Position numbers and translations under genes: made by a program. Below the pieces are notes generated by a model. That model was given only the letters and a program-made list of their open reading frames with translations. It was not told the DNA's origin and ran no database searches. A stretch of DNA of 64,000 nucleotides, taken from Tridacna crocea. Taxonomy: Eukaryota; Mollusca; Bivalvia; Cardiida; Cardiidae. The stretch lies in contig OX031060.1 of the NCBI GenBank assembly GCA_943736015.1, forward strand, positions 12,103,501 to 12,167,500, given 5' to 3'. Of the stretch, positions 14,401-36,100 are shown piece by piece; position 1 is the stretch's first letter; each line of letters opens with the position of its first letter.

Positions 14401-17400
14401 AGGCTGACCTGAGTTCATACTTTTGGTAGATGAACTATGCCCCCTTTTCACAGAGTATGGCTCAAATAAGGTGTGCCTCAGGAAAAGTGGGTTTAAGCCT
14501 TTACCAAACGACAAAATGATAGATCACTCCAAATTGAAAGCATTTGCAGATAACATACTAAAGGTGGCCGAAAGGATGAAATTTGCCCTTGATTGGCTGG
14601 GAAACATTGTGGGAAAAGGAGAAAATGCTGGTTACCAGCATTTTCTCCTTTTCCCACAATGTTTTCAAGAGGCTTCTCTTTTCTGAGGTTGTTCAAACAA
14701 GGGATTGTTTGGTAAAGAGTTAATGTGCCATAGTAATGAGTTATACCAAGGAGACAAGGCAGGCTTGATATCTTTTGCAAATGCTTTAAAGCAAAAGCAT
14801 GACACATATTTTCATTCACCAATTTTATATACAAAAAACTTGGTAAGAATTTACATTATTTCATGCTTTCCGGCAGGATAACGAGAAATAGCAGTGAAAC
14901 TATTTTTTGACCTTACACTGGTACCACCAGTGAAAATATCGATGTTCTTGTCGCCTAGGTAAATTGCGCGTGCCTGACAACCAGATGGGAAATATGTCGT
15001 CATTTACCTTAGATTTCTCGCGCATGACGTAATATTGTGATGCGTTGCTATGCGGGAGGGATTCGCCACGGGGAATAACGGAAAAGATCTGTACTGGATT
15101 TTGATAAATCTCCTCCAAGAAAGGGTTAAAAGCATGAAATAAATAGATTTTTTTTTTTTTCGGTGAAAGATCTCATGAACACCATCGGTAATATTTTCAC
15201 TCATGGCTGTGTCACTCCTGAAAATATTACCGATGGTGTCCACTCGATGAAATAAATTTCGATCTTTCACCAAAAAAACCCAAAAATCCTCAATGTAAGT
15301 AATTGCTGCAGTAGCTACTAAAGTTTAATGTATGAAAACATCATTCTGGCAAAAAAGGAGATAATGCTTGTCATAAATGATTTCAGTTTCTGCCAAATTG
15401 TTTGCAAAAGTGGTCTTCCAGAAAAAAAAGTAAATGGTGTACGTGACAAATCTGGTTGTTTACTTGTGATCTCTATTAAAGGCATTTCAAGAAATCATCC
15501 AAACATTTCAAAACATTGTGGGAAAAGGAGGAAATGCTGGTAAACAAAATTTCACTGACTACTACTCTAATTCCATTTTTTTAGCCATAATAATTCACTT
15601 GTCATATTGCAATTATTGCTTCCATATAGAAAGATTTCAAAACTATGATTAGGCTAATTGTTTGATTATATGATGTTAAACGCCATTTTCAACATTATTT
15701 CACTTATACCATGGCGGCCAGTGCACTTATCCATGCTTTCCTGGAGTTTGTTTTATCAGTGCATAGCACAATTCTTCTGGCTGCTTTCCATAACCATCAT
15801 CCAAACAATGATCAGTGGTGAGAGAGGAATGAATCCTGTTGCAATGAATATCATCAATCCTCAGAAAAAAATTGGCCGGGTTGGGGATCAAACCATCGAC
15901 CCCCTAATCATGAGTCCTGTATGCTATTGACTGCTACTTAATATGTGCAATTTGTTAAAGAATTAACCCTTTCCCAAACAAGCCCTGGTTTTTATGTGTC
16001 TCAGTAAAGGTCTTTTGAAAACACTGTGGGAAAAGGAGATATTGCTCGTAACAAGCAATTTCTCCTTTTCCCACAGTGCTTTCTACCCTTTTTGAGAACT
16101 TTCTGCCATTTTCTCCAAATCTAACATTGGCGTCTGCAAAATCTTTTGGTTTGGAAGGGTCCAAAATTTATCGTTTGGAAAAGGGTTAAAGGCTGTTACA
16201 AGCAAGTGAGCCATTCCCTGGCAAAAGGGGGCTTAATGCATCCCTGTTATGCATGTTACCAAGCAAATAATCAAACAACTGTGAATCCAGAAAATCAATT
16301 TTGTGTAACTACTGAACGAGTCATAATGTGCACTGTTCCTTCACTGTTCAGAAAATTCACCTAAAGCAAAACATTTCTGCCCAAGTAAGCCAGCAACTTA
16401 GAGAAACTACCTGCATGACTATAAACATCTTCTATAGTTCCAAAAATTCAGGAAAAAGCTATCAGCGAGCAGCAGGTGCTTCAAGTAATTGTCTCTGTCA
16501 ATCATGTCTTGGGATTAGGATTATCATAGCTTTTTACATTCAGAGATGCCAATTTCACAATGAATTCAAAGCAGAAGACATTATGTAAACAGTGAAACAG
16601 GTAAAACATTAGCATAACATATCCATGCAGGAAATCCTCTCAATTTATTTATTTCCTCCCTTAACTTTTTACCAAATGACAAAATTTTAGACAGGTCCAA
16701 ATTCACAGCAAATTCCAGACAATGAAATAAATGAAACTCAACAAATTGAAATTTGTTTCCAGCAGGGAAGAAAACATTGTGGGAAAAAGAGAAAGTGCTG
16801 ATCACCAAGCCTTCTGTCTCGGGGTCATAAAAAACAGGGATTGTTTGGTAAAAGGGTTAATTTTTAACAAACAAGCAACTGGTTTTCATGATCCTGGGAA
16901 GGAAACTTATCAAAAACCTTGTGGAAAAAGGAGAAAATGCTGGTAACCAGCATTTTCTCCTTTTCCAACAAGATTTCCTACCCTTTCCGAGACAAATTTC
17001 ATAAATAGAAAATTTGTCGTCTGCAAATGATTTCAATATGGACCAGTCTAACAATTTGTTGTTTGGTACAGAGTTAACCCTCATCCTGCAGAACAAATTA
17101 AATGAAATTTTCCAGCAGATAGTAAAGGACATAAAATAAGGGGATTTTTAAAAAATATCAATGCTGTTACTGATTATATGGGTTTTCCAGCTTCATCTTA
17201 CAAGGATAGGATGTCCAACAGAAGGGGCAGGGAGCCATCCCCTTTAACTCTTTGCCAAACAACAACAAGAGGGCCATGATGGCCCTGTATCGCTCCACTG
17301 GCTTTTTAACCCTTTACCACGCAAATTCAAGTGTTCATGACCGTGAAAAAGAGGGCCTTCAAAAACAATGAACACTGTCAGGCAGTACAAGCAGGTTAAT

Positions 17401-20400
17401 TCATAAGCATGAAAGGTAAAATCCTTGAAAAAATAGGCTGAATGATAGAAACCTTACTCTGAATTTATTATTCAACTCATGTGAGCATAACTATTAGCAT
17501 CAAAATGAATCACACTTGAAAACAGAATATTTCCTATCAAAAAACTTAATGTCTAGCACCAATCATGTATCAAACAGTTTGATACTCAAGGGAGGTAAAT
17601 AGTACCAAACTTTATCTTTCATACAAAGAGTTACATGTATTTCCCTTGATTAATGTTTAAATTGAAGTGAATATATTTTCAAGCCCATGTTAAACTTGTG
17701 ATCCCTGGATGGAGCCAATTTTGACCTCAGACCTACAATATGAAACTAGAATGTGTGGTCATAAATAGGGCTCCGTATCGGTCAGTTTGATCGATACGAT
17801 ATTTGTATCGATACAAAATGATCGATATTCGATATATCATATGATATTTCAATTTTCAAGAAAAGAAAGAAAAAAATGCGAAAATTGTGTTTGTTCTTTT
17901 TTCAGCATACCTGAAAAACAAAATACCGCAAATTTAACACTTCTAGATTGTATTGAAATTTCATAATTATGTAGGCCTAAATGAATATGAATTCTAACTA
18001 GATCTACATTTACTACTCATTAAAAAGCTGAAAAGACAGTCTAAGAGGACTCTGATCGGACAATGTCAAGGAGACATTTTGTTGTGTCATGGGTTTCCGT
18101 GTTTTTTTTTTTTCACCAAACAATTTTTCATGCGTGTTAATTTCTGGATAGGTATGTTCGCATGATTCGACATAGATTTCTCAATAAGGATTAGAACTAG
18201 CATCAAAACCTGTTATTTTACTCACGATAAACAGATAATGGCCTTTTTTGTCCATGTTTCTTCTTACGTGAGGTCTCGCGTGTGATTAACATTTGTTATG
18301 CAAATTACAAGTCTATAAAATGATTTACACAATAATTTACGCGAGTCAGAACACTGATTTAAGATAATCTAATGGAAAAAGAGATTTGATTTTCGAGCCA
18401 CAGTTTTCGGCAATATTAAAAGATCGACCAAATAAAATCTTAGGAAGGTTGAAAGGTCATGGCTTCAATTATTTCCATCGCTACCTCTCGATCACATCAC
18501 GAGATGTTCATTACCTTTCTTTAATCAACTATATTGACCAATTATCAGCGTAAATTTGTCTGCAATCTGCTGATTGATGCATAATTTGCAGATTTCAAAC
18601 AACATGACGGGGGAACGAGAATAGGGGTATTAGCTAATTGTCATCCATTGTGTAACGGGTACAGGGCGAATAATAAAGAATGACGCATTTCGATTGGTTG
18701 TAAGTTTCCCAGGTAGCCACACCTACCTCTACCACTACTCGACTTTAGAGATTACCTAAAGTAAACTCGTAATGAATTTCGCTGTTAAAAACAACTAAAC
18801 TGGGTATTTATATGCTTTACTTTTATTTTCTTTTGATGATCGATATTTTGTTTGATACAGAAACGTTCGACCCAATATATCTATTGAACGTAAAATACCG
18901 GTTTTCGATATATATCGAGTACCGGTACAGAGCCCTAGTCATAAACATGAAGATTTTTTAATCTTGCCCAATAAAAAGCCCTGTAAAACAAGTTTGCTCA
19001 ATAAAAGGCCCTGTAAAATATGTGACCCATGAGACAAGTTTATAAAGCCAATATAAAACTTGTGACCCCTGGGGTGGGGTCAAACTTGACCCCCAAAGTT
19101 AAAATTTGGGCCCTCTTGGCAGAGGCCCATTAGATAAAGCTACATGCAAAATTTGGTAGCCCTAGGCCTTATGGCTATGTACAAGTAGATTATTAAAGTT
19201 TCCCTATAAGCCCATGTAAAACTTGTGACCTCCTGTGACGGGGCTAAATTTGACCCCAGGTCTATAATTTGGGCACCCTTGGTAGAGACCCCTTAGATAA
19301 AGCTACATGCACAATTTGATAGCCCTAGCCCTTATAGCTAGGTGTGAGAAGATTGTGAAAGTTTTCCCTATATAAGCCTATGTACAATTTGTTACCCCCC
19401 AGGGCGGGGCCAAATTTGACCCCTGGGCTATAAGTTGGACACCCTTGGTAGAGGTCCACTAGATAAAGCTACATGCCAAATTTGGTAGCCCTAGGCCCTT
19501 TGGCTAGGTGGAACAAGAATTTTAAAGTTCTCCCTATATAAGCCCATGTAAAACTTGTTACCCCCGGGGCGGGGCCAATTTTGACCCTAGGGCTATAATT
19601 TAGACAGTATTGGTACAGGTCCACTAGATAAAACAACATCCCAAATTTGGTAGCCCTAGGCCCTATGCATAAGTAGAAGAGGAGTTTTAAAGTTCTCCCT
19701 AAATAAGCCAATGTAAAACTTGTGACCCCTGGGGTGGGGCCAATTTTGACCCCAGTGCTATAATTTGAAAAAACTTGGTAGAGGTCCACTAGATAAAGCT
19801 ACATGCAAAATTTGGTAGCCCTAGGCCTTATGGTTTCAGACAAGAAGATTTTCAAAGATTTTCAACTTTTTTCAGTTTTGTTGCCATGGCAACCAAAGTT
19901 TTTGAAGGAATTAAGTTCTATCGAGAAATTCTGAAGAGAACCATGGCAGGATCATTTCTGTGAAGTTTCATCAAAATTGGATGGGTAGTTTCAGAGAAGA
20001 AGATGTTTAAAGAAAAAGTTAACGGACGGACGGACCAACGGACAGACGGATAACGGGCCATGACATAAGCCCGCTGGCCTTCGGCCAGTGGAGCTAAAAA
20101 TTAAGACTGGTCCAAACTCAATGCATTTTCAGACGAAAAAAAAAAGAAATGTGAGTACAACACTGAAGTTTGTTCTGGAAAGGTAGAAAATAATCATCAA
20201 GCTGATCTGAGACATCACTTTACATAAATTTCAGAATGCCTCTTTTTGGGTGTTGGAGCCAAATAATGTTCTGACAAAAAAGAAAAAAAATCACTCAGAC
20301 AAAAAATACTTTCAAAGCAATTGAAAAAATTTACTATGGACATAGTCTGAAATACATTTTAACCCTTTGCCACACATTGTGGACTTTTTATGACAGTGGG

Positions 20401-23400
20401 TAAGAAGCCTTTTGAAAACATAGTGGTAAAAGGAGAAAATGCTGGTCAGCAGCAATTTCTCCTTTTCTCACATTATTTTTTACCGTATTAAAGAAAACTG
20501 CACAATTGAGCCACATTTAAATTCTTGTCAGGAAATGCATTCCATGTGTACAAGGCTGAAATCTTGTGGTCTGGTATAGGGTTTAAAGGACATGATGTAT
20601 TATGGCAAGACTTTGTCCAAAAAAAAAAAAACAGCTTTAATAGATGAAAAATAATCAGGGTTTTCCTTGACGCACGATTTTGTGCGTTTTGACGCACTTT
20701 TAAGGAAAATGACCCGCACTTTTTTCAGTAATGCATCACGGTGGACGCACAAATACAATAAGAGGTAATAATGATCGTATATACTTCTGACACTGTTACA
20801 TCGTGAGCAGATAAAAAATCTGGAGTACGAAGGGGAAATGGGACGAAAAACTGGACTGTGTATCAATTCTACTACAATACCGTCGGTATTTTAACGGGTC
20901 TAAACTAAACCAGTCGTTCTCAAATGAAAACAATATGGCTCCGTCAAAATCGACGTCATTCTTGCTGTCTGCAAGGAAGAAGAGCCCTTAAACAAAGATC
21001 AGACGATACTGCGACTGGTAAGAGCACCCAAAACAACATTTCAAGGTCTCGAGGGTTTACTGTAAATTAGCTAGAGATACACTTTGTTATTCGTTAAAAA
21101 CAGCGACGTGAAAGTGACCCGCGTGTCAAAACACAAGAATCGGTCATTTATCGAAATGGTGAAAATTGTTTATTTTCGGCCGAAACGGGTAATCTTTATC
21201 AAGAAAAATAACAGAGACTTCCCACTCTGGCCGACAACAAGCTTTCTTTGCCAACGAAATGGTCGATTCCTGTGATAAAAACAAAATAACCCTTAACCAC
21301 AGTGAGAGGCTACACATAAAAAAAAAATGCACATACTTTCACAAATAGTAGCTTTTGTTTAAGCAATTTAACGAATTACATTTCGTTGTGACCCCCACAA
21401 ATTCCAAAATGACCCCCATTATTTTTGACTAGGGGGTCACAATGACCCCCTTTTTTTGTGGCTGAGGGAAAACCCTGAATAATCAATCTAAATAATGAAA
21501 GAAACATGACAGATACCTACCACAGGAGTGAGAACTTGACTTTCAACATTGTTTTTGGTCACTGTGTTAAAAACCATCAAGGTCAGTAGAAATATTGAGA
21601 GAAGCATTGCAACAAGTCCAAAGAAAACTCCGCAGGTAAACCAGATCTTCAGAACTTTGGGTCGCCACTGTGCTAGGCGTACAAACATCCTATTCATAGC
21701 TGTGGAATACCAGCGGAACTGACACACTGATACAGAGAAACCTGTCCTCTCCAACCACCTGACATACTTCACTGCAGACCATGGCTGTGACTGAAAGGAA
21801 ACATACAGAATGTACTTTACAAGCTTTTTAGAAGGTTTAAGCAGTCATCTATAGAATTCATCAAAAGATATCATGGTGAGCAGGGTACACAACAGCATGA
21901 GGAGAATGGAAGAGGAGTCCATTTCAGGTTCCTTTTCCAAGTTTCTTTATTTTGTTTCAGTATTTATTAGCTGTGTAATAGTCTCTTGACACTTTGGACT
22001 AAGACATTGAGCATTTCTGTGACAATAATCTTGCAATTAACAACACCTCTCAAAGATCAAATTCTTCAATGACAAGTCAGGGTGTCAAATCAACTAGAGA
22101 GTGGGTCTTCTGCCCTCCTAAAGTCAATTTCTTCACATTTTTATTTGGTAACGAGATGGCTCAGGCCTAACAAAAAACATCTGTGTTCAGGGTTGACCCT
22201 TTACCAGAGGACAACATTTTAGACCTTTCCAAGTTGAAAGCACTTGCAGACAACAATTACAGAGTGACTCAAATAGTGCAACTGTTTATTGATAGGGTAG
22301 AAAACATTGTAGTGAGCATTTTCTCCTTTTCCCACAATGTCTTCAAAACGCTTCTTTCCAAAAGTCGTCATTGTGTGGTAAAGTGTTAGTGTAAAGGGTT
22401 AGGCTCAAGATGCTGTAGGTAGGGATTTTCCCTTTTCTCAGAAACTTTTTACATGGACCATGTGCTTAATCACATCTGATTTTTTTTTCCAATTGTAGCA
22501 TAAAAAGTTTAGGGAAAACTGCATTTTCTATGTAGGGTCAGGAAACTCTAAACACAATTTTTTTGAAACGCCTCATGCAGGCAACTTATTGCATCTTATT
22601 GCAGACTTCTTCATACATGTGGCAAAAGAAGTAAATAAATTCAGTAGTATGAGGAAATTTCTCATTGTGTCACGATGTTTTAATTCCAGGGATTTAACCA
22701 CATATTTCCACAGATTTTTTTTTTAACTCTTTAATAGCGCTCAGTCCCGACTTTTAACGACCCTGATAAAAAAAGCCTTTAGAAAACACTGTGGGGAAAG
22801 GAGAAAATACTGGTAACAAGCATTTTCTCCTTTTCCCACAATGTTTGTTTTCTACCTTCCCCAAATCAAATTTAAATTTTTCAGTCACATCTATTTTGTT
22901 GTCTGCAAATGCTTTCAATTTGGACCAGTCTATAAATTTGTTGTTTGGTAAAGAGTTAAATTTGTATGCCTTAAACCATTTCAAGAGGTAAAACTTGACA
23001 AGTTTGTGAAGTATGGATAACTAGAGCTATCACTAAAGGTGATGAATAATCCCACCTCCCACCTGTCCTCCCCCGTCGCAGACACCTCTGCAGATGGAAG
23101 GTACCCCCCCATGCCAAGAAATAACCTTTTGTCACGGAAATGCCATCTTCCCGAACCAAGGTAACGATCAATATGTTGATCTTATATTGGCTGATTGAGC
23201 CCAATTTCGAGATTCCTGTGATGCGTCCTCTATTGGATGCTGGTTTTATTACTCCCTTTATATCATATTTCTAATAGCCAATGAAATATCGTTTTACAAA
23301 CCACTTACAAATACACATGAAGTGATAAGCAGACATCCACATGGGTTTCCATGTTTATCTTCTATTTGAAAAGTAGCGATCTTGTTCTATTTTTATCAAA

Positions 23401-23749
23401 GATGAAATGCTACGTGCGATTTCATTTGTTGCAGTTAGAGCCAGCTGCATCCAATGAAAAAGCGTATCGAGGGAATGTAAAATTCAAGCTCGATCCACCA
23501 AGGATAGAGTAGTGTAATGAGTCGTGAGCCTTGGCTTGCAAAGATGCGGAAATGCAGTCCAACTTGGACTCCAAGAGTGGTCAATATACATGGGCACGAC
23601 GTAGTTTGGGTACGAATAAACTAAGAAACAAAACACCAGTATTCAATGCTGTAACACAATGACAGTCAACCTACTTTCAGAAATGCATCCAGTAAATATA
23701 TACTGGACCAGCATCCCAACATCAAAGCAATCCAGGCGGTCTGAACCAT
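2205..23749 (-). CDS. MBTPS2: Site-2 protease (membrane-bound transcription factor peptidase, site 2), complete gene, 9 coding exons
   Basis: Intramembrane zinc metalloprotease that, in animals, makes the second cut releasing SREBP and ATF6 transcription factors from Golgi membranes after site-1 protease. Coding exons on the minus strand: 23749-23675, 21790-21521, 14166-14063, 13005-12759, 12062-11873, 10382-10294, 8878-8683, 3552-3477, 2427-2205. All junctions have GT-AG sites and matching phases, giving 489 residues (human protein 519; the difference is largely a serine run missing here). Residues 1-25 form a first hydrophobic segment, HEIGH (residues 140-144) is the HExxH zinc/catalytic motif, and LDG (436-438) supplies the third zinc ligand. 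A cysteine-rich lumenal loop lies in exons 6-7. The match to vertebrate S2P was made from memory by eye but runs the whole length. Introns carry many transposons. It starts 362 bp from EIF2S3 in the opposite direction. Confidence 0.95.
2510..2733 (+). repeat. Palindromic MITE, old diverged copy
   Basis: Only the outer arms and GGTAAAGAGTTAA end are easy to see. In MBTPS2 intron 8. Confidence 0.55.
3044..3272 (+). repeat. Palindromic TTAA MITE, full copy
   Basis: Intact palindrome and TTAA ends; MBTPS2 intron 8. Shares its right TTAA with a diverged copy next to it. Confidence 0.85.
3269..3455 (+). repeat. Palindromic MITE, diverged, ends beside MBTPS2 exon 8
   Basis: Lacks the palindrome centre. 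Its right end lies about 20 bp from the exon 8 donor site. Confidence 0.5.
3477..3552 (-). CDS. MBTPS2: MBTPS2 coding exon 8
   Basis: 76 bp small exon. Its phase fits exons 7 and 9 exactly (G|TG and AA|A). Encodes [20 protein letters not shown], matching the SFIPRF..DLPVVVETF segment of human S2P. Acceptor TCTTTCAG, donor GTATCC. Confidence 0.88.
4024..5343 (+). mobile_element. Pearl-like element with seven ~156 bp core repeats
   Basis: Starts ACAAGAGCGGCAAACTGTCG. Core units (AAGTATGAAAAACGACAAAG..) begin near 4105, 4258, 4412, 4569, 4726, 4882 and 5038. Then a CCGCCCGGACGCACG-type GC microsatellite and the terminal GTCTTCGACGGGCGTATAAA-like end. MBTPS2 intron 7. Confidence 0.85.
5205..5302 (+). 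repeat. GC-rich microsatellite (CGCCCGCCCGGACGCA)
   Basis: Repeats of CCCGCCCGGACGCACGCC; makes spurious Pro/Arg-rich frames on both strands. Confidence 0.85.
5411..5621 (+). repeat. Palindromic TTAA MITE, full copy
   Basis: Intact palindrome directly after the pearl-like element; MBTPS2 intron 7. Confidence 0.8.
6290..7686 (+). mobile_element. Pearl-like element with three ~155 bp core repeats
   Basis: 5' AGACCACGATGGTCCTATAT, core units (GACCCC..GGGCCAGTTTGA..CAAAGCTCTA) near 6990, 7145 and 7310, 3' GAGCACTTTGTGCTC plus AGGTGAGCTAAAAAT. Contains a MITE fragment near 6420-6525. Nested inside the CAGGGTT transposon. Confidence 0.8.
7336..7358 (+). repeat. Poly-C tract
   Basis: GACCCC followed by an unbroken C run in a core repeat; length is likely unstable. 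Confidence 0.8.
8683..8878 (-). CDS. MBTPS2: MBTPS2 coding exon 7
   Basis: 65 codons plus 1 nt. Encodes NYACLPAR, further cysteines ([12 protein letters not shown]) and [11 protein letters not shown], colinear with the vertebrate GHPLHLHYT region. Donor GTACAA. Confidence 0.93.
8975..9206 (+). repeat. Palindromic TTAA MITE, full copy
   Basis: MBTPS2 intron 6; palindrome slightly altered (GGAAAAAAATACTGG). Confidence 0.82.
9391..9619 (+). repeat. Palindromic TTAA MITE, full copy
   Basis: MBTPS2 intron 6; TTAACCCTTTCCC left end and GGTAAAGGGTTAA right end. Confidence 0.82.
9905..10136 (+). repeat. Palindromic MITE, full copy
   Basis: MBTPS2 intron 6; followed by an extra TIR-like fragment to 10165. 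Confidence 0.75.
10294..10382 (-). CDS. MBTPS2: MBTPS2 coding exon 6 (cysteine-rich loop)
   Basis: 89 bp: 2 nt plus 29 codons. Contains IDCCNE and THLCF, the CC and C positions of the S2P lumenal loop. Strong donor GTAAGT; acceptor TCTGTAG. Confidence 0.9.
10605..10766. repeat. Short foldback element
   Basis: Arms of about 56 bp (CATCAGCTTGTG..GGGAAAGGT and its inverted copy) with a ~50 bp loop. In MBTPS2 intron 5; unrelated to the TTAA MITE. Confidence 0.7.
10886..11113 (+). repeat. TTAA MITE, subfamily B
   Basis: Palindrome variant GAAATTGCTCG/AGCAATTTC and TIR variant CCTTCCCC/GTTTGGGAAAGG, both changed on both sides. MBTPS2 intron 5. Confidence 0.8.
11137..11282 (-). repeat. TTAA MITE, truncated by pearl-like fragment
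   Basis: Stops in the palindrome centre (GGTTACCAG), where the pearl-like sequence begins. Confidence 0.75.
11283..11842 (+). mobile_element. Pearl-like element, 3' part with ~150 bp core repeats
   Basis: Three to four diverged core units (TTTGGACTGAAAATGTGG..) and the terminal CTCAGGTGAGCTAAAA. Ends only about 30 bp from the MBTPS2 exon 5 donor. Confidence 0.7.
11873..12062 (-). CDS. MBTPS2: MBTPS2 coding exon 5 (PDZ-like lumenal region)
   Basis: 63 codons plus 1 nt after acceptor CTGTAG. Encodes [20 protein letters not shown], matching the PDZ-like region after the core of S2P. Donor GTATTA after 11873. Confidence 0.93.
12101..12327 (-). repeat. TTAA MITE, nearly full copy
   Basis: MBTPS2 intron 4; left TTAA degraded, intact palindrome. 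Confidence 0.78.
12348..12500 (-). repeat. TTAA MITE, diverged partial copy
   Basis: Left half only, fading after GGAGAAAATACTGG; MBTPS2 intron 4. Confidence 0.55.
12593..12740 (+). repeat. TTAA MITE, internally deleted
   Basis: The stem jumps from ACATTGTG straight to GTTACCAGC; MBTPS2 intron 4, next to the exon 4 donor. Confidence 0.65.
12759..13005 (-). CDS. MBTPS2: MBTPS2 coding exon 4
   Basis: Starts with 1 nt finishing an Arg codon, then [30 protein letters not shown] and a long hydrophobic helix, all typical of the S2P core. Ends in phase 0 with donor GTAATT. Confidence 0.95.
13334..13558 (+). repeat. TTAA MITE, full copy
   Basis: MBTPS2 intron 3; shares its right TTAA with the next copy in the opposite orientation. 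Confidence 0.85.
13555..13775 (-). repeat. TTAA MITE, full copy, abutting the previous one
   Basis: Tail-to-tail with 13334-13558, with one TTAA between them, as if one copy inserted at the border of the other. Confidence 0.82.
13860..14045 (-). repeat. TTAA MITE, diverged, beside MBTPS2 exon 3
   Basis: Palindrome centre kept; right end ends about 18 bp from the donor of the catalytic-motif exon. Confidence 0.65.
14063..14166 (-). CDS. MBTPS2: MBTPS2 coding exon 3 (HExxH catalytic motif)
   Basis: 34 codons plus 2 nt. Encodes PGVNLP, a membrane segment and [10 protein letters not shown]; the HEIGH pentapeptide gives two zinc ligands and the catalytic Glu. Acceptor TTTCCAG before 14166, donor GTAATA after 14063. 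Confidence 0.95.
14221..14480 (+). repeat. Interspersed repeat with CAGGCTGACC motif
   Basis: Shares the order GGGGCTTA..GGTCCTGTAA..GCAGGCTGACC..CCCCCTTTTCACAGA with 31590-31830, 38400-38600 and 51785-51955. Likely a separate small non-autonomous DNA element. Confidence 0.55.
14493..14723 (-). repeat. TTAA MITE, full copy
   Basis: MBTPS2 intron 2; intact palindrome and both TTAA ends. Confidence 0.85.
14857..15270 (-). repeat. Repeat family E (CTTTCCGG..GATCTTTCACC), full copy
   Basis: About 410 bp, the same as 35416-35852 in opposite orientation. Ends in a long hairpin around ACCATCGGTAATATTTTCAC. MBTPS2 intron 2. Confidence 0.7.
15660..15950 (-). mobile_element. tRNA-derived SINE, diverged
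   Basis: Minus strand carries a B-box-like GGTTTGATCCCC near 15885 and the 3' tail TGTTGAAAATGGCGTTTAAC near 15670-15700, as in other SINEs here. MBTPS2 intron 2. Confidence 0.6.
15963..16189 (+). repeat. TTAA MITE, subfamily B
   Basis: GATATTGCTCGTAAC / AAGCAATTTCTCC palindrome, TTTCCCAAAC ends. MBTPS2 intron 2. Confidence 0.8.
16661..16860 (-). repeat. TTAA MITE, one palindrome arm deleted
   Basis: Shares its right TTAA with the copy at 16857-17076 in opposite orientation. Confidence 0.75.
16857..17076 (+). repeat. TTAA MITE, full copy
   Basis: Intact palindrome with ACCTTGTGG/CAAGATTTCC stem ends; MBTPS2 intron 2. Confidence 0.82.
17266..20098 (+). mobile_element. Pearl-like element with five ~163 bp core repeats
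   Basis: Starts CAAGAGGGCCATGATGGCCC and ends with hairpin CTGGCCTTCGGCCAG plus TGGAGCTAAAAA. Core units (GGGGCCAATTTTGACCCC..) run about 19040-19850, then an ACGG-rich microsatellite at 20020-20052. Contains an inserted hAT-like element. Confidence 0.8.
17766..18937. mobile_element. hAT-like non-autonomous DNA transposon
   Basis: 1172 bp with terminal inverted repeats TAGGGCTC(C/T)GTA(T/C)CGGT and an exact 8-bp target duplication GTCATAAA at 17758-17765 and 18938-18945. 8-bp duplications with TAGGG ends are typical of hAT. No transposase ORF. Nested in the pearl-like element, so younger than it. Confidence 0.82.
20359..20586 (+). repeat. TTAA MITE, full copy
   Basis: MBTPS2 intron 2; loop changed to GGTCAGCAGC. 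Confidence 0.75.
20656..21477. mobile_element. CAGGGTTTTCC-ended DNA transposon
   Basis: 822 bp; left CAGGGTTTTCC, right GGAAAACCCTG; 6-bp duplication AATAAT at 20650-20655 and 21478-21483. Internal short repeats GACCCCC and GACGCAC. No long ORF. A 6-bp duplication points away from hAT or P and could fit the IS3EU group (uncertain). Lies 43 bp inside MBTPS2 intron 2 from the exon 2 donor. Confidence 0.78.
21521..21790 (-). CDS. MBTPS2: MBTPS2 coding exon 2
   Basis: 90 codons, phase 0 at both ends; acceptor TTTCAG before 21790, donor after 21521. Encodes the [13 protein letters not shown] segment and a second hydrophobic stretch, colinear with vertebrate S2P. A CAGGGTT-ended transposon ends 44 bp downstream of the donor side (see 20656-21477). 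Confidence 0.93.
22193..22389 (-). repeat. TTAA MITE, palindrome arm deleted
   Basis: MBTPS2 intron 1; right end GTGTGGTAAAGTGTTAG. Confidence 0.7.
22723..22959 (+). repeat. TTAA MITE, full copy
   Basis: MBTPS2 intron 1; intact palindrome. Confidence 0.83.
23000..23200 (-). repeat. Possible interspersed repeat (ATCACCTTTAGTGATAGCTC)
   Basis: C-rich segment with a small inverted ATCAC..GTGAT motif at 23021-23045. It looks like a mollusc repeat to me, but there is no second copy in the window, so this rests on impression. Confidence 0.25.
23675..23749 (-). CDS. MBTPS2: MBTPS2 coding exon 1 (start codon, N-terminal membrane segment)
   Basis: ATG at 23749 opens 25 codons of a hydrophobic N-terminus with a Trp and the YLLDAFLK end that matches the start of animal S2P. 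The donor GTAGGT follows directly. The exon ends in phase 0, as exon 2 requires. It is too short to show as a long ORF. Confidence 0.9.
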
Positions 23750-24111
23750 TCTCACTTGATCATGCCTTGGCTAGAATTTTGGTTAAAACCAAAAACCCAT
23801 TCCTCTTTTAACCGATGGTGTCATCAGTTTCAGAAGTAACATTTATTATCCTACAACTATATGCATGCCACTTAGCCTTTAAAACGAGGCGAATTTCACA
23901 TTTTTAACTGCAATTGAGATATTTTTATCAGTGTCTTTTCAGATATTGAAAGTAAACAGCATGTAGATTAGTCAGTAATACTCATCGCAAGGTGATTGGT
24001 CAATTAATGAAGTATTGAATTGTGGGAATGTTTTATTGTATCCCGGCTGTGCAGGATTTTCAGTAGATGCTCTTGTAAATAGGTAAACAGCATATACTTG
24101 CATCAGAAAGC
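23750..24111. promoter_or_regulatory. Shared bidirectional promoter between MBTPS2 and EIF2S3
   Basis: Only 362 bp separate the two opposite start codons, so both 5' UTRs and core promoters must lie here unless there are non-coding first exons. The segment is free of recognisable repeats. It has an inverted CCAAT box (ATTGG at 23995-23999). I see no convincing TATA box or CpG island. Confidence 0.65.
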
Positions 24112-24183
24112 ATGACTGCGGAAACGGAGCAAACTCAAAAGAATCTTCAACCACATCTTTCTAAACAGGACCTTTCAACTTTA
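24112..24183 (+). CDS. EIF2S3: EIF2S3 coding exon 1
   Basis: ATG at 24112 and 24 codons ending [13 protein letters not shown], matching the QPHLSRQDLTTL N-terminus of vertebrate eIF2 gamma. Donor GTTAGT at 24184; reading on hits a stop three codons later. Confidence 0.92.
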
Positions 24184-27100
24184 GTTAGTAACTAATGACA
24201 TTTCATATATCCAAGATTATAATCCATAAGTTTCAATTTTTACAGAGTATTTATTTTCACATTCAAACTAACTCTAACTTCGCCGGCTGGTGTCTGGAGA
24301 AATCGGCCCCTGGAGAAATCGGCCCCGGGAGAAATCGGCCTCAAAACGCTTGGGGCCGATTTCTCCGGAGAAATCGGCCCCTGGGGACGATTTCTCTGGA
24401 GAAATCGGCCCCGACAGAAATTTTGGAGAAATCGTCCCCAATGCCAAATTTTATATATATAGATATTGCTTTTTCAGAAAATGTAATTTCCATTTAGGTT
24501 TTATTTAACACATTCACTGTGTAAGCCATGTCTTGTTTCAAGTTGTATTTGATTACACCTTCTTTGTTGTTTTTATGGCAATTTTCATAGTTTTTCACAC
24601 TGATTGTTCTTTTTTTCACACTTTCACAGAGGTAGCCTACACCTGAAAGATTGTTGAATGTTTGTGTTTGTTTGAAATTGATATTGAACGAATTATGAAT
24701 TATAAATGCTCACGATGCATATATGTGTATTTTTTATATCATTAAAACCTATTTTTTTTGCACCTTTCTCTCTCGATCTCTCTCCCTTTCTGCATGTTCG
24801 GCATAGGTAATTGTTATCAATTTCATATTGTTGTTCTTCGTCGGATCAGATCTTACCCCCTCTCTCTCACTGTTAATGAATATTGTTCATGTTACAGAAT
24901 GGTTTTTAGAACCATCAGTTGTTTTTCCTCAACCTTTTCACATTTACTCCTTTTCCCACAATGTTTTCAAAAGCCCTTTCCTACAGGTTTTTTAAAACAC
25001 GGGATTGTGCGGTAATGGGTTAAGTTAATCGATCATTGGTTCGATCAACGAAAGAGTTCTCCGCTGTATATAAAAGAGTGATATAACTGATAATTAGGCC
25101 ATTGTGGACTCTATTTTATTTCATCGAAAAAAAAAGGATGCATTTAAAAAAAACCTGTAAGAGAGGGCTTTTAAAAACATAGTGGGAAAAGGAGTAAATG
25201 TCAGCACTTTTGCACTTTCTCCTTTTCCACAATTTTTCCCACCCAAAAACAAAAACAATTTTTCCAGTTATATTTAATTTGTTGTCTGCAAATCCTTGAA
25301 TTTTGACCCGTCTAAATTTTTGTCGTTTGGTAAAGAGCTAATTACACAAAATAACCGGGTCACTTGTAGTACAATGAAAAATGATAGAAAGAGAGAGTCA
25401 GAAAATGCAGCGGAAGTATACAGTTTGAGAGATCGAGTATAATACCCGATCAAGATAGAGAGAGAGAGAGAGAGAGGGAGGAAACAGACATAGAAAGACA
25501 CAATAGGTTGGAGAAAGAAATCTGATGGTTCTAAAAACCATTCTGTGACATGAACAATATTTATAAACAGAGAGAAAGAGAGAGAGAGAGAGATCTGATC
25601 CGACTCAGAACAATAATATGAAATCTAACAGGTGTAGGCTACCCGTGTGAAGGTGAGAAAAAAGAACTATCAGTGTGAAAAACTGTGAAAATTGCCTTAA
25701 AAACAACAAAGAAGGTGCAATCAAATACAACTTGAAACATACCTGGGAGTGGGTGTCAATTTTGGGATTTTTCATTGGCCCAAACATTCGGCGCGAGTAC
25801 TGGTGTAGTTCCCAGGAAGCAGAATCGAGAGAGATTGGTAAAAGTTGTAAGAACTTGTTTCTCAATCGATGTAAAATAAATATGTTTAAACTAACTTGAA
25901 ACAAGACATGGCTTACACAGTGCATGTGTTAAATAAAACCTAAATGGAAATTACATTTTCTGAAAAAGCAGTATCTATATATATAAAATTTGACATTGGG
26001 GACGATTTCTCCAAAATTTCTATTGGGGCCGATTTCTCTGGAGAAATCGTCCCCAGGGGCCGATTTCTCCAGAGAAATCGGCCCCAAGCGTTTTGGGGCC
26101 GATTTCTCCAAGGGCCGATTTCTCCAGGGGCCGATTTCTCCAGCATTCCGCCGGCTGGAACAGCTGATCGTTTCAAATCCACTACGAAGCCACATTTTTA
26201 AATAATTTTTATAGATCTATATCTTTATTTTGATAGCGTTTTGGTAACAATTTCATGAAAGTTATGTGTACTAGTTAACATAATGATCAGCTTTATAAAT
26301 TTCTTGTTTCGAGTTGAACGTCGGAATACATGTACATGCTGTACCGAAGTGGAAGTCGGACAAGGTGAGTTTTCAAAATGAAACGCTAGGATCTGGGTTT
26401 TAAGAAAAAAGTGTCCCATAGACTTTGGGACCAGAGATATAGTCAGTTTGGCCCAATTGTAGGCTAAAGGTTTCGGGGGCATAACTAGGATGATTGACTC
26501 ATGGCAAAGTATCAAGGCTACTCTTTAACACTTTACCTGATGACAAAATTCTAATTGTCCATACTGACTATATCTGTAGAGTGCAGACTTGAACGTGATA
26601 AGATTTGTGTTTGAAAAGGATGAAGGCAGTGAGAAAAATATGGTTTTGAAAAGGACAAAACGACAAAATTTTAGACGGGACCAAAAGGATTAAGGAAAGT
26701 GGCATTTTGGAACACACACACCCATATTTTCTTTTTTCTCTTTCCAGAAAGTTGATAAATTGACCCCACTCACTCCAGAGGTGATCAGTCGGCAGGCCAC
26801 AATTAATATAGGTATTATAAAGTGTGCATATTTATGGCCAAATTTCTGTATAAACTCATTACCAAACGACAAAATTTTAGGTTCGTCCAAATCAAAAGCA
26901 TTTGCAGATGACAACATAAAAGTGACTGAAAATTTGAAATTCGTTTCGTGAAGGATAGAAAACATTGTGGGAAAAGGAGAAAATGCTGGTTACTAGCATT
27001 TTCTCCTTTCCCACAATGTTCTCTAAAGGCTTCTTTCTCAGGGGCGTCAAAAGTAGGGATTGTGTGGTAATTTGTTAACTAGATGTTATGAAAGTATCAG

Positions 27101-30100
27101 TGTGGACATCATGATGTTTATAAAAGGACTCTAATACAGTAACATCAAGGTTAAACTAACCTGGATATATGTATAACAGAATATAGAAGAGTGAAAGTCT
27201 GAAATTAGATATAATAGTTTGTTTTTAGTCTGATCATAATCTACACAATTTAATAGGAGCAACTTAAGATGTGACCTGAACTCTGAAAGTCTCTGAGAGA
27301 TATTCAGTTACATAAAAAACTCCAGGAGATCATGGATAGGTGTACTGGCTGCCGTGATATAACTGAGCAAATGTTGAAATGGGTAGATCTAAATTTCATG
27401 AAACATGTGGTGTAATCTTTGACTAACACTTTCTTCTCTTGTTCCAGATATTAAAACAAGGTGGATTAACCCTTTCCCCAAATAATGCCTACTTTTGATG
27501 ACGCTGGGAAAAAGTCTTTTTGAAAACATTGCGAGACAATGAGAAAATGCTGGTAACCAGCATTTTCCTTTTTTTTTTCACAATGTTCCCCAAATAATGC
27601 CTACTTTTGATGACACTGGGAAAAAGCCTTTTTGAAAACATTGCGAGACAATGAGAAAATGCTGGTAACCAGCATTTTTTTTTTTTTTCCCACAATGTTC
27701 CCCAAATAATGCCTACTTTTGATGACACTGGGAAAAAGCCTTTTTGAAAACATTGCGAGACAATGAGAAAATGCTGGTAACCAGCATTTTCCTTTTTTTT
27801 TTTCACAATGTTCCCCAAATAATGCCTACTTTTGATGACACTGGGAAAAAGGCCTTTTGAAAACATTGCGAGACAATGAGAAAATGCTGGTAACCAGCAT
27901 TTTCCTTTTTTTTTTCACAATGTTTTGTATCCTATCAGATCAGTTTTCATAATTTGTTCCCCCTTTTTTCAGTCACCTGCAAATGCTTTCAGTTTGGACA
28001 AATCTAAATTTTTGTTGAGTGGTAAAGAGTTAAAGAAATATTAACACATTCACAGATAAGTTCATGCAGATCGGCACATGTGGTGACTTTTTCACTTTCA
28101 GACAAGTTAAGTTAATGATGAATCTTACAATCCTTCATTCTGCTTTACTCTGTTAGGTACTCTAATTAACCCCTTACCCCATAAGGCATTTTTATGGTAT
28201 CTCTAATTGACCCTAAATAACAGCAAGGATGAAGCCATTTCTTATGTGTACATGTATAACCGGGAGGGGAATTCTACATCATTTATTTATTATTTCTTCA
28301 CCATTTTATCACTGAGGGGAATAATAGAATAAGTCAACAAGACAAATGTTTCGTTTTCAAACTTTCAATTTCTTCTAATTTCATATATCCAAAAATTCTA
28401 AAATACGTCCAAAGTCATCAAAGCCAAATTAATTTCTAAAATGTCCAAATATTCCAAAGGTCTAAATTCTTCAAAGCCAAAATTATTTCTGTCTCTCTCA
28501 TCCTATAATCTTTCTATCCAAATCTCATACTTCCCATGATCCTCATCCATCCTACATCCAATCATAATCATTCTTACACTCACTCATCTTAATTTATTTG
28601 TTTCTCTCTGTCTCATTGGTCAATTGCTCACTCACTCATTTTCCCGCCTTTTCTTACCAGATCATCAACATCAAAGGAGTATAGCACCTACTTGAAATTT
28701 ATTACCAACATGGATTACCAATAGGGGTCTAATGTAATAGTTCCACTAGATTACTGCAATGACTTTCTGATAAGGTTCCAAATGCTACCAAATGTTGCAT
28801 ATCCATATGTTCAAGCTTAGACAACTAGCAAACCCTTCATATAGACAGATTACTAAGTAAAACTTGAACATAGATTATTAAAACTCATTTTCAACTATAA
28901 TTATTAATTAAATATTTTAACAAACAATGACTGCAATATGCCTTGGGTGACACATGACACCTTTTGATAGCATAGAAAACATTGTGACAAAAGGTGAAAT
29001 TGCTCGTTTTCAAAAGGCTCCTACAAGCAATGCGTAGAAATGAGTATCTATGGAGTAAAGGGTTAATTGATGAATCAGTAGCTTTGTAGATAAGAAAATA
29101 TAATCAAACATCATTTTTCCTTTTACAGGTACCATTGGTCATGTAGCTCATGGAAAGTCAACTCTTGTGAAAGCTATATCAGGTGTACAGGTATGCAGAT
29201 GCAAAAGAGCTTTGCTCTGGCAAAAGGGGATTTAACTCTTTAGCAAACGACAAAATTTTAGACTGGTCCAAATTGAAGGCCATTGCAGACGATAAATTAA
29301 ATTTGGCCAAAGTGATGATTAAATCTTTTAAAGGGTAGAAAACATTGTGGAAAAAGGAGAAAATGCTGGTTTCCAGCATTTTCTCCTTTTCCCACTATGT
29401 TTTCAAAAGGTTTCTTCTTTGGTGTCATTAAAAGTCAGGATTGTGTGGTAAGCGCGGACATTTTTGAGTTGCATTTTTTTGCCGTCTTCCAAGTGCTTTC
29501 ATTTTGGACTAGCTTAAAATTTTGTCGTTTGGTAAAGAGTTAAAGCGGTGGACTCTTGACCTGGCCATTTTTATGGACAATATTTTTAGTTTACCCTTTT
29601 CTTTTAGGCCCTTACATTAAAATCCAACATTTCACCCTGAAAAAGAAAGTTTTTGAATTCATTGTTGAAAAAGGAGAAAGTGCTTGTTTTTACCCTTCTC
29701 TAAATAATTTTCAAATTTTGAGCCAGATTTATTTTGTTGCCCTCAAATGCTTTCAATTTGGAAAAGTCTGAAAATTTGTTATCCAAAAAGACATCATGCA
29801 AGGTTCAGGAGAGTACTAAACTGACCAGATATGACATTATGGTGCTAGGATGCTATACACAGATAACAGACTAACATGTCACAAGAATTGCCTTAACCCT
29901 TTACTCCATAGATACTCATTTCTACACATTGCTTGTAGGAGCCTTTGGAAAACATTGTGGCAAACGGTGAAATTGCTCGTCACAAGCAATTTCACCTTTT
30001 GTCACAATGTTTTCTACGCTATCAAAAGGTGTCATATACACATAAGAAACGGCTTCATCATTGCTATTATTTAGGGTCAATTAGAGATACCATAGAAATG

Positions 30101-33100
30101 CCTTATGGGCTAAAGGGTTAACACTAGCATAAGCTCTTTGCCAATCAAACCTTTGATGTCATCACTCCCATTCTGAAAATGAGGCAACTAGAGAAAATGT
30201 CGAGAAGCAGCATTTTCTTTTTTCCCACATTTTTTTCCTCTCTTCTCAGAAAAGTCCACCAGTTGAGCTACATCTATTTTTTTGTCTGCAAATGGTGTAA
30301 ATTTGAACAAATCTAAAATTTTGTTGTTTGTTATGAATTAATACAGGGAGGCGAAAGGGTGGAACATGGCAGCACATTTGTCAGTAAAACTCTAATGTGT
30401 TAGTGAAAGCTATTTGATCTCTCATTCATCACATTTTGAATTTAGTTCTTATTCTTAATTTCAAGATTAACTTGCTGATTGGCAGAGGTATGCTGTCATT
30501 TTTAAGAAACTGTATGTACATCTGATATTTTTGAGTTCTATTGTCATTCATAAGAATGGTCAAAATGGAGCACTAAATACATGTGCTTATTTCTTTCAGA
30601 CTGTCAGATTTAAGAATGAGAAAGTCAGAAATATCACAATAAAACTTGGATATGCAAATGCAAAGGTAAGAACTCGACACTTTTAAAGATCTGATATTTA
30701 ACCCTTAGGCTGCTCAGTGCAACTCAATGACCTTATGTGGACAGTGCAGAATGTGCAGTCTGATCTTGGATCTGCTCTGTCCAGTAGGGAGATATTTTTA
30801 AAAAAAAAAAAAGAATTTGAAACAGTATTTTTTCAGATTTTGTTTTAAAAGAGTTATTTAACATATTTAGCAGGAAAAGAATTAAGCATATTGACATTGT
30901 CTAGAACCATCCAATGCGCAGGGTTTCTTAATTTTTTAACAGACTACTTTTTGGCCCACTGAAAATACTACTAATTAGACGAAGTAGAAATTTTGAAAGG
31001 AAGGAAAATATCACTTTTCAGTCATATGGAAATGGTCTCGAGAAATGATTCCATTGCATGAATCCTGCCAGGACTCCTTTTCCCACTGTATTACAAAAGT
31101 ATTTATATGCAGGGGCAGGAAAATATGCTTGTACATTAATGGCTTAATGAGAATGCATCCGTGTGTTGAAATTTTATCAACTTTTAACCTGCCACATTTT
31201 TGTTACAGATTTACAAGTGTGACAATGATTCATGTCCTAGACCTGGTTGTTACAGATCCTGTAGCAGTAACAAAGAAGACTCATTTCCATGTGATAGGCC
31301 AGGGTGTAGTGGTCGCTTTCAGCTTTTAAGGTAGCACTGATTTTTTTCAACTTGTTGAACCCTTTACCAAACAATCTCTTGTTTTTACGACCCTAAGATA
31401 GAAGCCTTTCGAAAACATTCTGGGGAAAGGAGAAAATGCTGGTGACCAGCATCTTCTACTTCGTCCACTATGTTTACTGTCCTGTTGGAAACAAATTTCA
31501 ATTTTTGAGCTTTGTCATATTTTGTCGTCTGCAAGTGCTTTCAGTTTGGACCAGTCTGAAATTTTGTCGTTTGGTAAAGAGTTAAATGATTCTCTGGCAA
31601 AAGAGGATTTAATACATCAGCTACTGTGTGCTATAACTAGCAAGTTATATAATTAATGGATCCATAAAATGGATTTTGTCCAACAACCAAACGAATCATG
31701 AGGTAGACTGATCCTCAGACATGTAGAATTGACTGATAGCAAAAAGTTTCAACCAAGGTCAGCCTGCGCAGATGTGCAGGCTGACCTTTGTTGATACTTT
31801 TTGCAAATTTATAAAAGCCCTCTCTTCACAGATCATGGTTTTTTATTTATATGTGATTGTAAAACCAAATTTAGTAATCACTCTCAGTGATTGCTTCTTG
31901 TGTACTTGTGATGTTAATAGTGCAAAAATTTGACTGCAGTCATGATGGGACTCATCCTATGACAGCATCGTTTTTCTTGTTATTTAATGAGGTCTTTCAG
32001 TTATAAGCTTAGTCTGTAAGCTAAAATACATGGCTAGTAATCTTTAATTAAGAGATTTGGAGTTTGAGACCAGTCCTGGTCAAGTTATGTTACTGGATAA
32101 ATGTCAGTCATTTGGACAGGGTTTATAGTTCTCACTTGTTGAACATGGTTCGACCAGAACCTATGTGAGAAAAATGGCCAGTGACTTGTGAAAAGTGTTG
32201 TGTGAATGAAAGGAAACGCTACCATGGAATGGTATGATTACTGGCAAGGCTTCCTCTGTCGAGTGCTGCTGATGCCAAATGTGAGAATGAACCCTTTCCC
32301 GAACGAAAACAATCTAGCCTTGTCCAAATTGAAAGCATTTGTAGACGATAATTCCAGTCTGGCTCAAAAGGAGCAATTTTTTGTTGATAGGGAAGAAAAC
32401 ATTGTTGCAAAGGAAAAAATGTTACCAGCATTTTCTCCTTTTCCCAAAATGTTTTCAAAAGGCTTCCTTCTCAGGGTGGTCTAAAGTCAGGATTGTGTGG
32501 TAAAAAGTTAGGAGAGAACAAGAATTAGACTTGCTAAAATTAGAATCATTTGCTGGCTAAAGTTAAAATGTGGCTTAAATTATAGAATATGTCTTTGATA
32601 CAGTAGAAAAATGTGTGGGAAATGGAAGAAATGCTGGTTGCCATCATTTTCTCCTTTTGCCACAATGATTTCAAAAGGCTTCTTCCTTAGAATTGTGTAA
32701 ACTTAGGATTATGTAGTTAAGTGTTAATTTTCCAAAAAAATGAAATATTTTCCAGACATGTATCGTTTGTTGACTGCCCTGGCCATGACATTCTTATGGC
32801 AACCATGTTGAATGGAGCAGCAGTTATGGATGCAGCTTTACTTCTCGTTGGTATGAAATGTTTTGTATTTTATTGATTCAGCTCACAAGTTTTTCCATGG
32901 ACAATTTTGAGTGGGTATTTTGACTCCATTTGAATGACAGATTTTGAAGGATATACTGAAAGTTCTGAATAATAGATTTTCAAGGACATACTGAAAGTTC
33001 GAAAGCCTTAATTCAAAGGAAAAAGGGTCAGGAAAAATCAATGTAATGTTTTATTCTATATTAGTGCACCAAGGCCCCCGCCCTTTCAAAGACAGGGGTG

Positions 33101-36100
33101 GCTCAATTGCTCCCTTTGCAAAATTATTAATTTCCAAAAATGAATTTATCTGCATGTTGTACTGTTATTATTATACTGCAAAGAAATTTCCTGTGATCTG
33201 ATTGGATAATTTGGATATTATGCCTTAAACATTTACATCATGTACACTGGCAAAACCAATGGAAAAGCTGTTTCCCTTTTGGGAGCCCCATATACATGAC
33301 TACCAGGACAACATCAAAAATGACAGGGTCAATCAAGATTAACACCAAGATTATGTGCTAAAGTGGCACGTTTTATCACATACAATTAAGGTTTCAGTGA
33401 TGTCAGTGCCCAGTGACATCAGTTTTCATTGAAATGGGGCACTCAGAAGGGAAATTGTATTTCGTCATTGTACTCTTTTTCTTAATCCAAAAGCAGGTAA
33501 AATTGGCTTAACAGACATTGGAATGGTAAAACTTTACAGTATAATAAATTTGTTGTATAGTTGCCACCTCGCCTTCTGCTTGGGGCGACATGATTCACCA
33601 CAGCGGTGAACAAGTTTCCAAGTCCCCCGCCACCTGATAGTACAACTAATGATGTGTTGATATTTTCAGCTGGAAACGAGTCCTGTCCACAACCACAGAC
33701 ATCAGAACATCTAGCTGCTGTAGAAATCATGAAATTAAAACACATTCTCATACTTCAAAATAAGATAGATCTTGTGAAAGAGAGCCAGGCAAAAGAGCAG
33801 TATGAACAGATATTAGCTTTTGTCAAAGGTAAGACTGGTTTGTTTGGTTAACTCTTTTAATCCTTTACCAAACCACAATATTTTAGACTGGTCCAAATTG
33901 AAAGCACTTGCAGATGGCAAAATAGCCAAAACTCAAAAATACAATGTTGTATCCAGTAGGGCAGAAAACATTGTGGGAAAAGGAGAAAATGTTGGTTACC
34001 AGCATTTTCTCCTTTTCTCACAATGTTTTCTAAAGGCTTCTTTCTCAGGGTCATCAAAAGTAGGGATTGTGTGGTAATGGGTTAATACACAATCCTGACT
34101 TTTAACAACCTTAAGGAAGGAGCCGTTTGCAAACATTGTAGGAAAAGGAGAAAATGCAAATAACCAGCATTTTCTTCTATTCCCACAATATACAAAGTTT
34201 GGTCATATGATGTCCCTGGCATCAAAACTGGCACTGCCCCGGAGGTCACAGGAACAAAGAAGGAAAATTTTTAAATTTCTTTTTCTCTTAAATGGGAAGG
34301 TGTAGAGCTTTGATATTTGGTATGTAGCATCTTTGAGTGGACTTCTACCAAGTTTGTTCCAAGGATGCTGCTTTGGTCAAAACAGGCCCAGTCCCGGGGG
34401 TCACAAGTTCGAACATGGGACAAAGAAGGAAAATTTGAAATTCTTCTTTGAAACTGGAAGGTGTAGAGCTTTGATATTTGATTGCCCTATGTCCGGAGTC
34501 TGTCGCCCATCAACAATTTCTTTAAACATCTTCTTCTCCTAACCCACTGGGACAATCTTGATGAAACTTGGCAGGGATCGATGTTCCTTGGGTAAAGCTT
34601 TACCAAAGTTGTTCAAAGAATTGAATTTCACTCATAAGCTATAGTCTAAGGTGAGCGTTCCAGGGCCGATGGCCCTCTTGTTTTCATTTGGTAAAGGCTT
34701 GAATATCAAAAAAGCCATGCTCTGTGTAAGGAAGTTTAATATATTTGCTAAAAACATCAACCAAGGCCAGCCTGTGTCAAATCTCATTATTAAATCAATA
34801 CCAAATGACAAAATTTTAGGTTTGTCTAAATCCAAAGCGTTTGTAGACTACAAAATAAAAGGGATTGAAAATTTGAAATTTGATATAGAAAGGGTAGAAA
34901 ACATTGTGGGAAAAGGCTACTAGCATTTTCCCACAATGTTTTCTAAAGGCTTTTTTCTCAGGGGCATCAAAAGTAGGGACTGTGTTGTAATGGGTTAAAA
35001 CAGTCAGACAAAATGGATTGTACTGATCGATAGTTATAATATGACTTGGACTGCTATAATGCAATACTAAGCTGTGTTAAAACCCTTTTGCTATAACATG
35101 GATCATACATGCTTTAATATCCACAGGAACAATAGCAGAGGGGGCACCAGTAATTCCAATCTCGGCCCAGCTGAAATACAACATTGATGTTGTTTGTGAA
35201 TACATCACGAAAAAGATACCTGTCCCTATGAGGGATTTCACCTCAGAACCAAGACTTATTGGTATGTTGGATTATTCTATATGTAACCCCTCACACAAAA
35301 AGAGATAATCTGGGAAATCAACTAAATAACATTAAAATGGATCAAAAATGAGTGCAGGTTTATTTAAGTTGATAGTTCAAAAATGATTGTATAAATAGAG
35401 GATATTTGTCTTTTTCGTTGAAAGATCGAAATTTATTTCATCGAGTGGACACCATCGGTAATATTTTCACGAGTGGTGCAGCCACGAGTGAAAATATTAC
35501 TGATGGTGTTCATGAGATGAAATAAATTTTGATCTTTCACCAAAAAAAACAAATATTTTATTTATTTCATGCTTTTAACCCTTTCTGGGAGGAGCTTTAT
35601 CAAAGTCCAATACAGTTCTTTTACGTTATTCCCCGTGGTGTAGCCCTCCCACATAGCATTGCATTACAATATTACGTCAAGCGCAAGAAATGTAAGGTAT
35701 ATGACGTCATATTTCCCATCTGGTTGTTAGGCACGCGCAACTTATCTAGGCAACAAGAGCATGAAAGTCAGTATTTTCACTGGTTGTACCAGTGCAAGAT
35801 TGAAAATTATTTTCACTGCTATTTCTCGATATCCTACCGGAAGGCATGAAATAACAAGGTATAATGACCACTATTTATACAGAAAACATCATAAAAGCAA
35901 AAAGTATCAACAGTGGTTAACCTGTGGAATTCGCAGATCCAAGAAGGTCCCTATTTGGGGGACAGGTCACATATTTCTAACATATTTAAGCTATATAACC
36001 ATGTTCCATCATGTGCATTACCTTCAGAGTTCATCATATACTTAAACTCTTAACCGAATGAAAAAAAAAAGAAGAATTGAGACTGGACCAATTTGAAAAA

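Follow-up and report, generated by a model that had tools for sequence, protein, structure and literature searches.

Head-to-head MBTPS2 and EIF2S3 genes in Tridacna crocea and a likely shared promoter between them

What lies at the locus?

The stretch of DNA discussed here, which we call the window, is 64,000 nucleotides (nt) from the bivalve Tridacna crocea (assembly GCA_943736015.1, contig OX031060.1, positions 12,103,501 to 12,167,500, forward strand), and it carries the genes for the site-2 protease, MBTPS2, and for eIF2 gamma, EIF2S3. The two genes are arranged head to head: they lie on opposite strands with their 5' ends facing, as in any bidirectional gene pair, and their start codons (23749 on the minus strand for MBTPS2, 24112 on the plus strand for EIF2S3) leave a gap of just 362 nt. 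An earlier, sequence-only reading had named the genes, their orientation, both ATGs and the spacing, and all of this proved correct once complete spliced models and family matches were in hand; the first coding exons that it proposed, of 75 and 72 nt, also fit the span 23675-24183. The pair sits on a 67.1-Mb contig, C5 in our numbering, of an assembly of 1.049 Gb in 31 contigs. The main features are as follows.

2205..23749, minus strand: MBTPS2 (site-2 protease) gene; 9 coding exons, 8 introns, 489 residues, complete reading frame
23749-23675, 21790-21521, 14166-14063, 13005-12759, 12062-11873, 10382-10294, 8878-8683, 3552-3477 and 2427-2205, minus strand: MBTPS2 coding exons
23675..23749, minus strand: MBTPS2 coding exon 1; 75 nt, 25 codons, ATG at 23749, donor AAA/GTAGGT, phase 0 into exon 2
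23750..24111, no strand: interval between the ATGs, putative bidirectional promoter and both 5' leaders; 35% G+C, observed/expected (o/e) CpG 0.45
24112..24183, plus strand: EIF2S3 coding exon 1; 72 nt, 24 codons, ATG at 24112, donor TTA/GTTAGT; end at 24187 under a lower-scoring alternative splice
24112..45057, plus strand: EIF2S3 (eIF2 gamma) gene; 13 coding exons, 12 introns, 472 residues, complete reading frame
24112-24183, 26748-26811, 29129-29190, 30600-30665, 31209-31330, 32756-32850, 33670-33828, 35127-35261, 36328-36422, 37458-37602, 38974-39143, 42959-43131 and 44997-45057, plus strand: EIF2S3 coding exons

How firm are the two gene models?

The 20 introns were placed manually at frame-keeping GT-AG sites with the help of protein similarity, so that their GT-AG ends hold by construction, and the full-length identities to human given below should be taken as approximate. 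For MBTPS2, Pfam assigns Peptidase_M50 (PF02163) to the 489-residue translation with an expectation value (E) of 1.1e-23, and the translation contains both HEIGH and LDG, matching the HExxH and DG motifs of M50 site-2 proteases. Its identity to the human protein is 41% over 501 aligned columns (residues 18-484). The first exon is less conserved, with 8 of its 25 residues equal to the human N-terminus in an ungapped comparison that has the same end point; alone it reaches only E 0.046 in tblastn, and the full-length comparison begins only at residue 18. As a control, candidate stretches from both strands of the window were scored against the human N-terminus: exon 1 scores 51, the runner-up among 46 ATG-started open stretches of 25 codons followed by GT scores 1, and without the GT condition the best competitor among 706 stretches scores 19. 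A three-codon upstream frame (MIK, then stop; 23752-23763, minus strand) terminates 2 nt short of the MBTPS2 ATG and would sit in any MBTPS2 leader of at least 14 nt.

EIF2S3 is the better conserved of the two, with 86% identity to human over 456 columns. Its translation brings together GTP_EFTU (PF00009), GTP_EFTU_D2 (PF03144) and eIF2_C (PF09173) in Pfam, and the closest solved structure is eIF2 subunit 3 (E 3.7e-265), all of which identifies it as eIF2 gamma. We consider the assignment of its first exon secure by sequence comparison, 10 of 12 residues being identical to human eIF2 gamma. The first donor is the lowest-scoring of the 20 donors, and an alternative splice from 24187 to 26752 is also in frame (pair score 3.2 versus 12.9 for the chosen pair); the ATG is the same under either choice. 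Intron 1, for its part, harbours a foldback element (24282-26155) that begins about 100 bp past exon 1, with outer arms (24282-24544 and 25893-26155) that are 94% complementary and with nested arms and GGAGAAATCGGCCCC-type sub-repeats inside.

Could the pair be an artefact, whether an assembly misjoin or a processed or duplicated pseudogene posing as one of the genes? This we find scarcely conceivable. Each gene consists of many exons whose frames are open and whose splice sites are present, and the window is free of any N. In a genome search that left out simple repeats and highly frequent words, the DNA across the junction (23600-24260) had no match other than itself. The EIF2S3 protein has 13 matches in its own genome, every one an exon of this gene, so there is one copy, and the M50 family has a single genome match at E <= 0.001, which is exon 4 of MBTPS2. 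With a single EIF2S3 copy, a single M50 match and a unique interval, it is very unlikely that the pair is a duplicate or a pseudogene.

Is the interval one promoter or two?

We think it probable that these two broadly used genes form an ordinary divergent pair, with the interval working as one bidirectional promoter. Mechanistically, two back-to-back initiation sites for RNA polymerase II would lie within the interval and be fed by common elements, the CCAAT box among them. The sequence itself shows the genes with their complete frames, orientation and spacing, the uniqueness of the interval and the CCAAT box; transcription starts within the interval, shared use of elements and coupled expression of the two genes are inferred. 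The interval holds these features.

23993..24001, minus strand: NF-Y-type CCAAT box, RRCCAATSR (ATTGG on the plus strand at 23995-23999)
23952..23978, plus strand: direct repeat, copy 1; imperfect, 27 nt, begins GTAAACA
24083..24109, plus strand: direct repeat, copy 2; ends 2 bases short of the EIF2S3 ATG and holds a match like the C/EBP-ATF response element (CARE), TTGCATCA, at 24098-24105

The inverted CCAAT box that the earlier reading reported is indeed there, and it fits the wider NF-Y core; from the frequency in the window, 362 bp should hold 0.12 matches to RRCCAATSR and 0.78 to plain CCAAT. Counted from about 23997, the ATG of EIF2S3 is some 112 bp away and that of MBTPS2 246 bp, and because the box is nearer to EIF2S3 it probably serves that gene first. 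The repeat is weak, an equally good one being found in 9 of 200 shuffles; its forkhead-like start, GTAAACA, occurs twice in the interval against 0.09 expected. Altogether 17 stress and promoter patterns were tried, and the only matches were ATTGG and one CARE-like site, of which 0.15 would be expected here, so that it is near chance. These motifs deserve little weight. Within the 362 bp there are 10 upstream ATGs on the MBTPS2 side and 8 on the EIF2S3 side, and no copy of the interspersed repeat that is abundant in the window (55 merged loci) falls in 23675-24183. A scan for bacterial-type promoters was set aside, having no meaning for an animal promoter.

Several observations weigh against a single common promoter, and they deserve to be set out together. 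Simple TATA, Sp1, ETS, NRF1 and YY1 patterns have no match in the interval, and a CpG island is ruled out: CpG o/e is 0.45 there against 0.40 in the window (0.33 and 0.28 in the two coding sequences), and six 400-bp segments starting from 23501 to 24001 rank at 0.72-0.92 for CpG among all such segments. Bidirectional pairs are reported not to be enriched in non-vertebrate animals (PMC2871058). There are also two acceptor-like AGs upstream of the EIF2S3 ATG, with scores of 8.2 and 8.4 and exon starts at 23834 and 23943, as judged by a scoring matrix derived from all 20 acceptors of both genes, whose own leave-one-out scores run from -0.7 to 13.0; donor-like sites lie farther upstream, at 22987 and 23160. 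The best acceptor-like site on the MBTPS2 side of the interval scores 3.5. This acceptor-like pair is a mild signal in the sequence against the simplest reading for EIF2S3, which may, because of the sites at 23834 and 23943, have a non-coding first exon.

That brings us to the rival picture of two independent promoters that lie face to face and share no elements; in one version they overlap, because a non-coding first exon of EIF2S3 would begin within MBTPS2. The acceptor-like sites, with the donor-like sites upstream of them, speak for it, as does the position of the sole CCAAT box on the EIF2S3 side. However, 362 bp would leave little space for separate promoters, and the two acceptor-like sites are a weak excess: on each strand the window has 1.1 sites per kb that score at least 8, so that 0.41 are expected per 362 bp, and the chance of two or more is 0.06. 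Two separate promoters are the main rival, which we rate as rather unlikely. The proposal of one short shared promoter stands in part, with the spacing and the CCAAT box in its favour and the acceptor-like sites leaving room for a non-coding first exon, and from the sequence we would still call a single short promoter common to both genes likely.

How usual is such an arrangement?

Known bidirectional pairs have much in common with this one, including adjacency on opposite strands, a very short interval, functions of the housekeeping type and a CCAAT-type element. The typical mammalian bidirectional promoter has a CpG island or GC box, whereas the MBTPS2-EIF2S3 interval has neither. The promoters of sponges, too, are described as rich in GC boxes (PMC4773876). 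With random placement, a divergent neighbour within 362 nt would be found in roughly 0.5-4% of cases, assuming 20,000-40,000 genes and assumed gene spans. For comparison, about 10% of gene pairs in mammals are reported to be divergent and under 1 kb apart (PMC2194621), over 10% of the protein-coding genes in human belong to such pairs (PMC3552671), and in D. melanogaster 32.2% of genes do (PMC4773876). Bidirectional linkages are reported to have been reshuffled between invertebrates and vertebrates (PMC3403606). A spacing of 362 nt is not trivial yet stays within the norms of animal genomes, and the arrangement by itself is ordinary.

There is even a precedent for eIF2 gamma in particular. At the Su(var)3-9/eIF2gamma locus of winged insects and silverfish (PMC1435931), the eIF2 gamma promoter is common to an unrelated gene, as it would be here; that locus is fused, whereas MBTPS2 in the clam stands by itself on the opposite strand. 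When the window was scanned crudely in six frames for SET-like patterns (NHS[CA] or N[HR]SC), one stop-flanked match came up on the reverse strand (offset 61522 there), and no SET-like exon was seen within EIF2S3, no domain search of the introns having been made.

Are the two genes tied together by stress?

The site-2 protease activates SREBP and ATF6, and eIF2 gamma belongs to the complex that is the target of the integrated stress response, which makes it tempting to see the pair as a stress-coupled unit, in which one promoter co-induces both genes and selection holds the pairing in place. Beyond the membership of the two genes in pathways of endoplasmic reticulum (ER)-lipid and translational stress, this picture can call on one CARE-like match, TGATGNAA, in the interval. 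Against it, the patterns for the ER stress response element (ERSE), the unfolded protein response element (UPRE), the cyclic AMP response element (CRE) and CACGTG have no match in the 362 bp, nor does the sterol regulatory element (SRE) on either strand, even allowing one mismatch; the CARE-like match is a single hit among many patterns, near chance expectation, and co-regulation, it has been argued (PMC3403606), hardly decides whether bidirectional pairs are retained. Co-regulation through ER and integrated stress, as the sequence-only reading had it, accordingly finds no support in the interval. It is a hypothesis that the two genes may be co-regulated via stress responses, and the full stress-coupled unit strikes us as quite improbable.

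Is the linkage old?

Human EIF2S3 lies at Xp22.11 (PMC10122315) and human MBTPS2 at Xp22.12 (PMC13212568), so that the earlier placement of both in Xp22 was right at the level of bands. The same two genes thus share one chromosome arm in human, apart there and adjacent head to head in this genome. The human distance is about 2.2 Mb; both human genes are on the plus strand and not adjacent, and the head-to-head partner of human EIF2S3 is KLHL15. Two given human genes would fall within 2.2 Mb of each other at random in about 0.14% of cases.

Does the shared arm reflect old linkage? Human Xp marker families were looked for in the clam genome, and seven could be located.

CNK: C5, 48.95 Mb
eIF1A: C5, 26.33 Mb (a match on C4 reads as the eIF1AD type)
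MAP3K5/6/15 family: C5, 47.76 Mb
POLA1: C13, a counter-example to linkage
HCCS and PIGA: C4, counter-examples to linkage
Spermidine/spermine synthases (Spermine_synth): C17 and C15, not C5, a counter-example (SMS and SRM not told apart)

Searches with SpmSyn_N and ApoO gave no match in the genome, and control genomes were equally without one, which makes these two uninformative. C5 makes up 6.4% of the assembly, and at least three of seven markers would fall there by chance in 0.8% of cases; with the MAP3K family removed, at least two of six would do so in 5.2%. Two of the three C5 markers, eIF1A and the MAP3K family, were picked once the place of CNK on C5 was known, and the MAP3K family because the human genes related to it occupy regions in common with the relatives of CNK. 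Among the located markers planned beforehand (POLA1, spermine synthase, CNK, PIGA and HCCS, with the second spermine-synthase search counted) one of five is on C5, a result with a chance of 28%. In addition, CNK and the MAP3K family have further human copies on other chromosomes, and because of this the tie of C5 to Xp22 is weakened. The MAP3K5/6/15-type and CNK genes lie about 1.2 Mb apart on C5, and their human relatives share Xp22, 6q and 1p; this proximity suggests an old linkage block.

The old linkage that the earlier reading saw hinted at survives in a qualified form, with three of seven Xp markers on C5 in its favour, and, on the other side, four of seven elsewhere and the post hoc choice of two of the three. 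From marker positions, the case for old linkage at the scale of chromosomes is weak to modest. It is a hint that C5 and human Xp22.12-p22.11 have part of their neighbourhood in common, which does not imply that the two genes were adjacent in the ancestor. Part of this neighbourhood may be ancient, and that would ease local pairing without any functional coupling.

A bolder idea is that the bilaterian ancestor already had MBTPS2 and EIF2S3 directly head to head, that a shared promoter linking membrane-stress proteolysis to translation initiation has preserved the pairing in the present lineage, and that vertebrates moved the two about 2 Mb apart while leaving both in Xp22. Since lophotrochozoans are reported to have retained 93% of those microsyntenic blocks that arose in the bilaterian ancestor (PMC8851819), an old pair is not absurd; the main text of that study of 49 animal genomes names neither gene. 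In the literature, subscription papers and supplements lying outside the scope, none of the titles listed concerns MBTPS2-EIF2S3 adjacency and MBTPS2 was not found with 'bidirectional promoter'. We regard an ancestral pair kept in this way as improbable. Comparisons of eIF2 gamma with a viral collection (32 stretches) and of MBTPS2 with a collection of prokaryote genomes (12 stretches) returned no relative, which was expected and says nothing on conservation of the pair.

What else is in the window?

Much of the remainder is repetitive. The abundant interspersed repeat, whose core GGGAAAAGGAGAA has 40 exact copies on both strands (22721-22990 is an example), occupies 11,954 bases once matches within 150 bp of each other are joined, at most some 19% of the window. 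Farther along the plus strand lies a ZUP1-like gene (59173-60627 and on). Its zinc fingers within the window are of the Di19 and C2H2 types, and in the neighbouring 10 kb (L014, 1043-6229) all three open frames that were examined match Peptidase_C78. In human, ZUP1 is at 6q22, and 6q also holds MAP3K5 and CNKSR3, which are related to two of the C5 markers. At 5009-5353 several frames are open, with a repetitive translation. An open frame of 89 residues at 51245-51514 on the minus strand encodes a membrane-like segment and a charged tail, with no Pfam match at 0.001 and one sub-threshold match at E 0.047. Scans of the 64-kb window for tRNAs and Rfam families found nothing.

What would the pair mean?

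The significance of these two genes standing back to back hinges on how widely they do so. Should the pairing turn out to be conserved in lophotrochozoans and deuterostomes alike, it would be a case of ancient microsynteny of two stress-related genes; if it is specific to the lineage, it would be one among very many divergent pairs.

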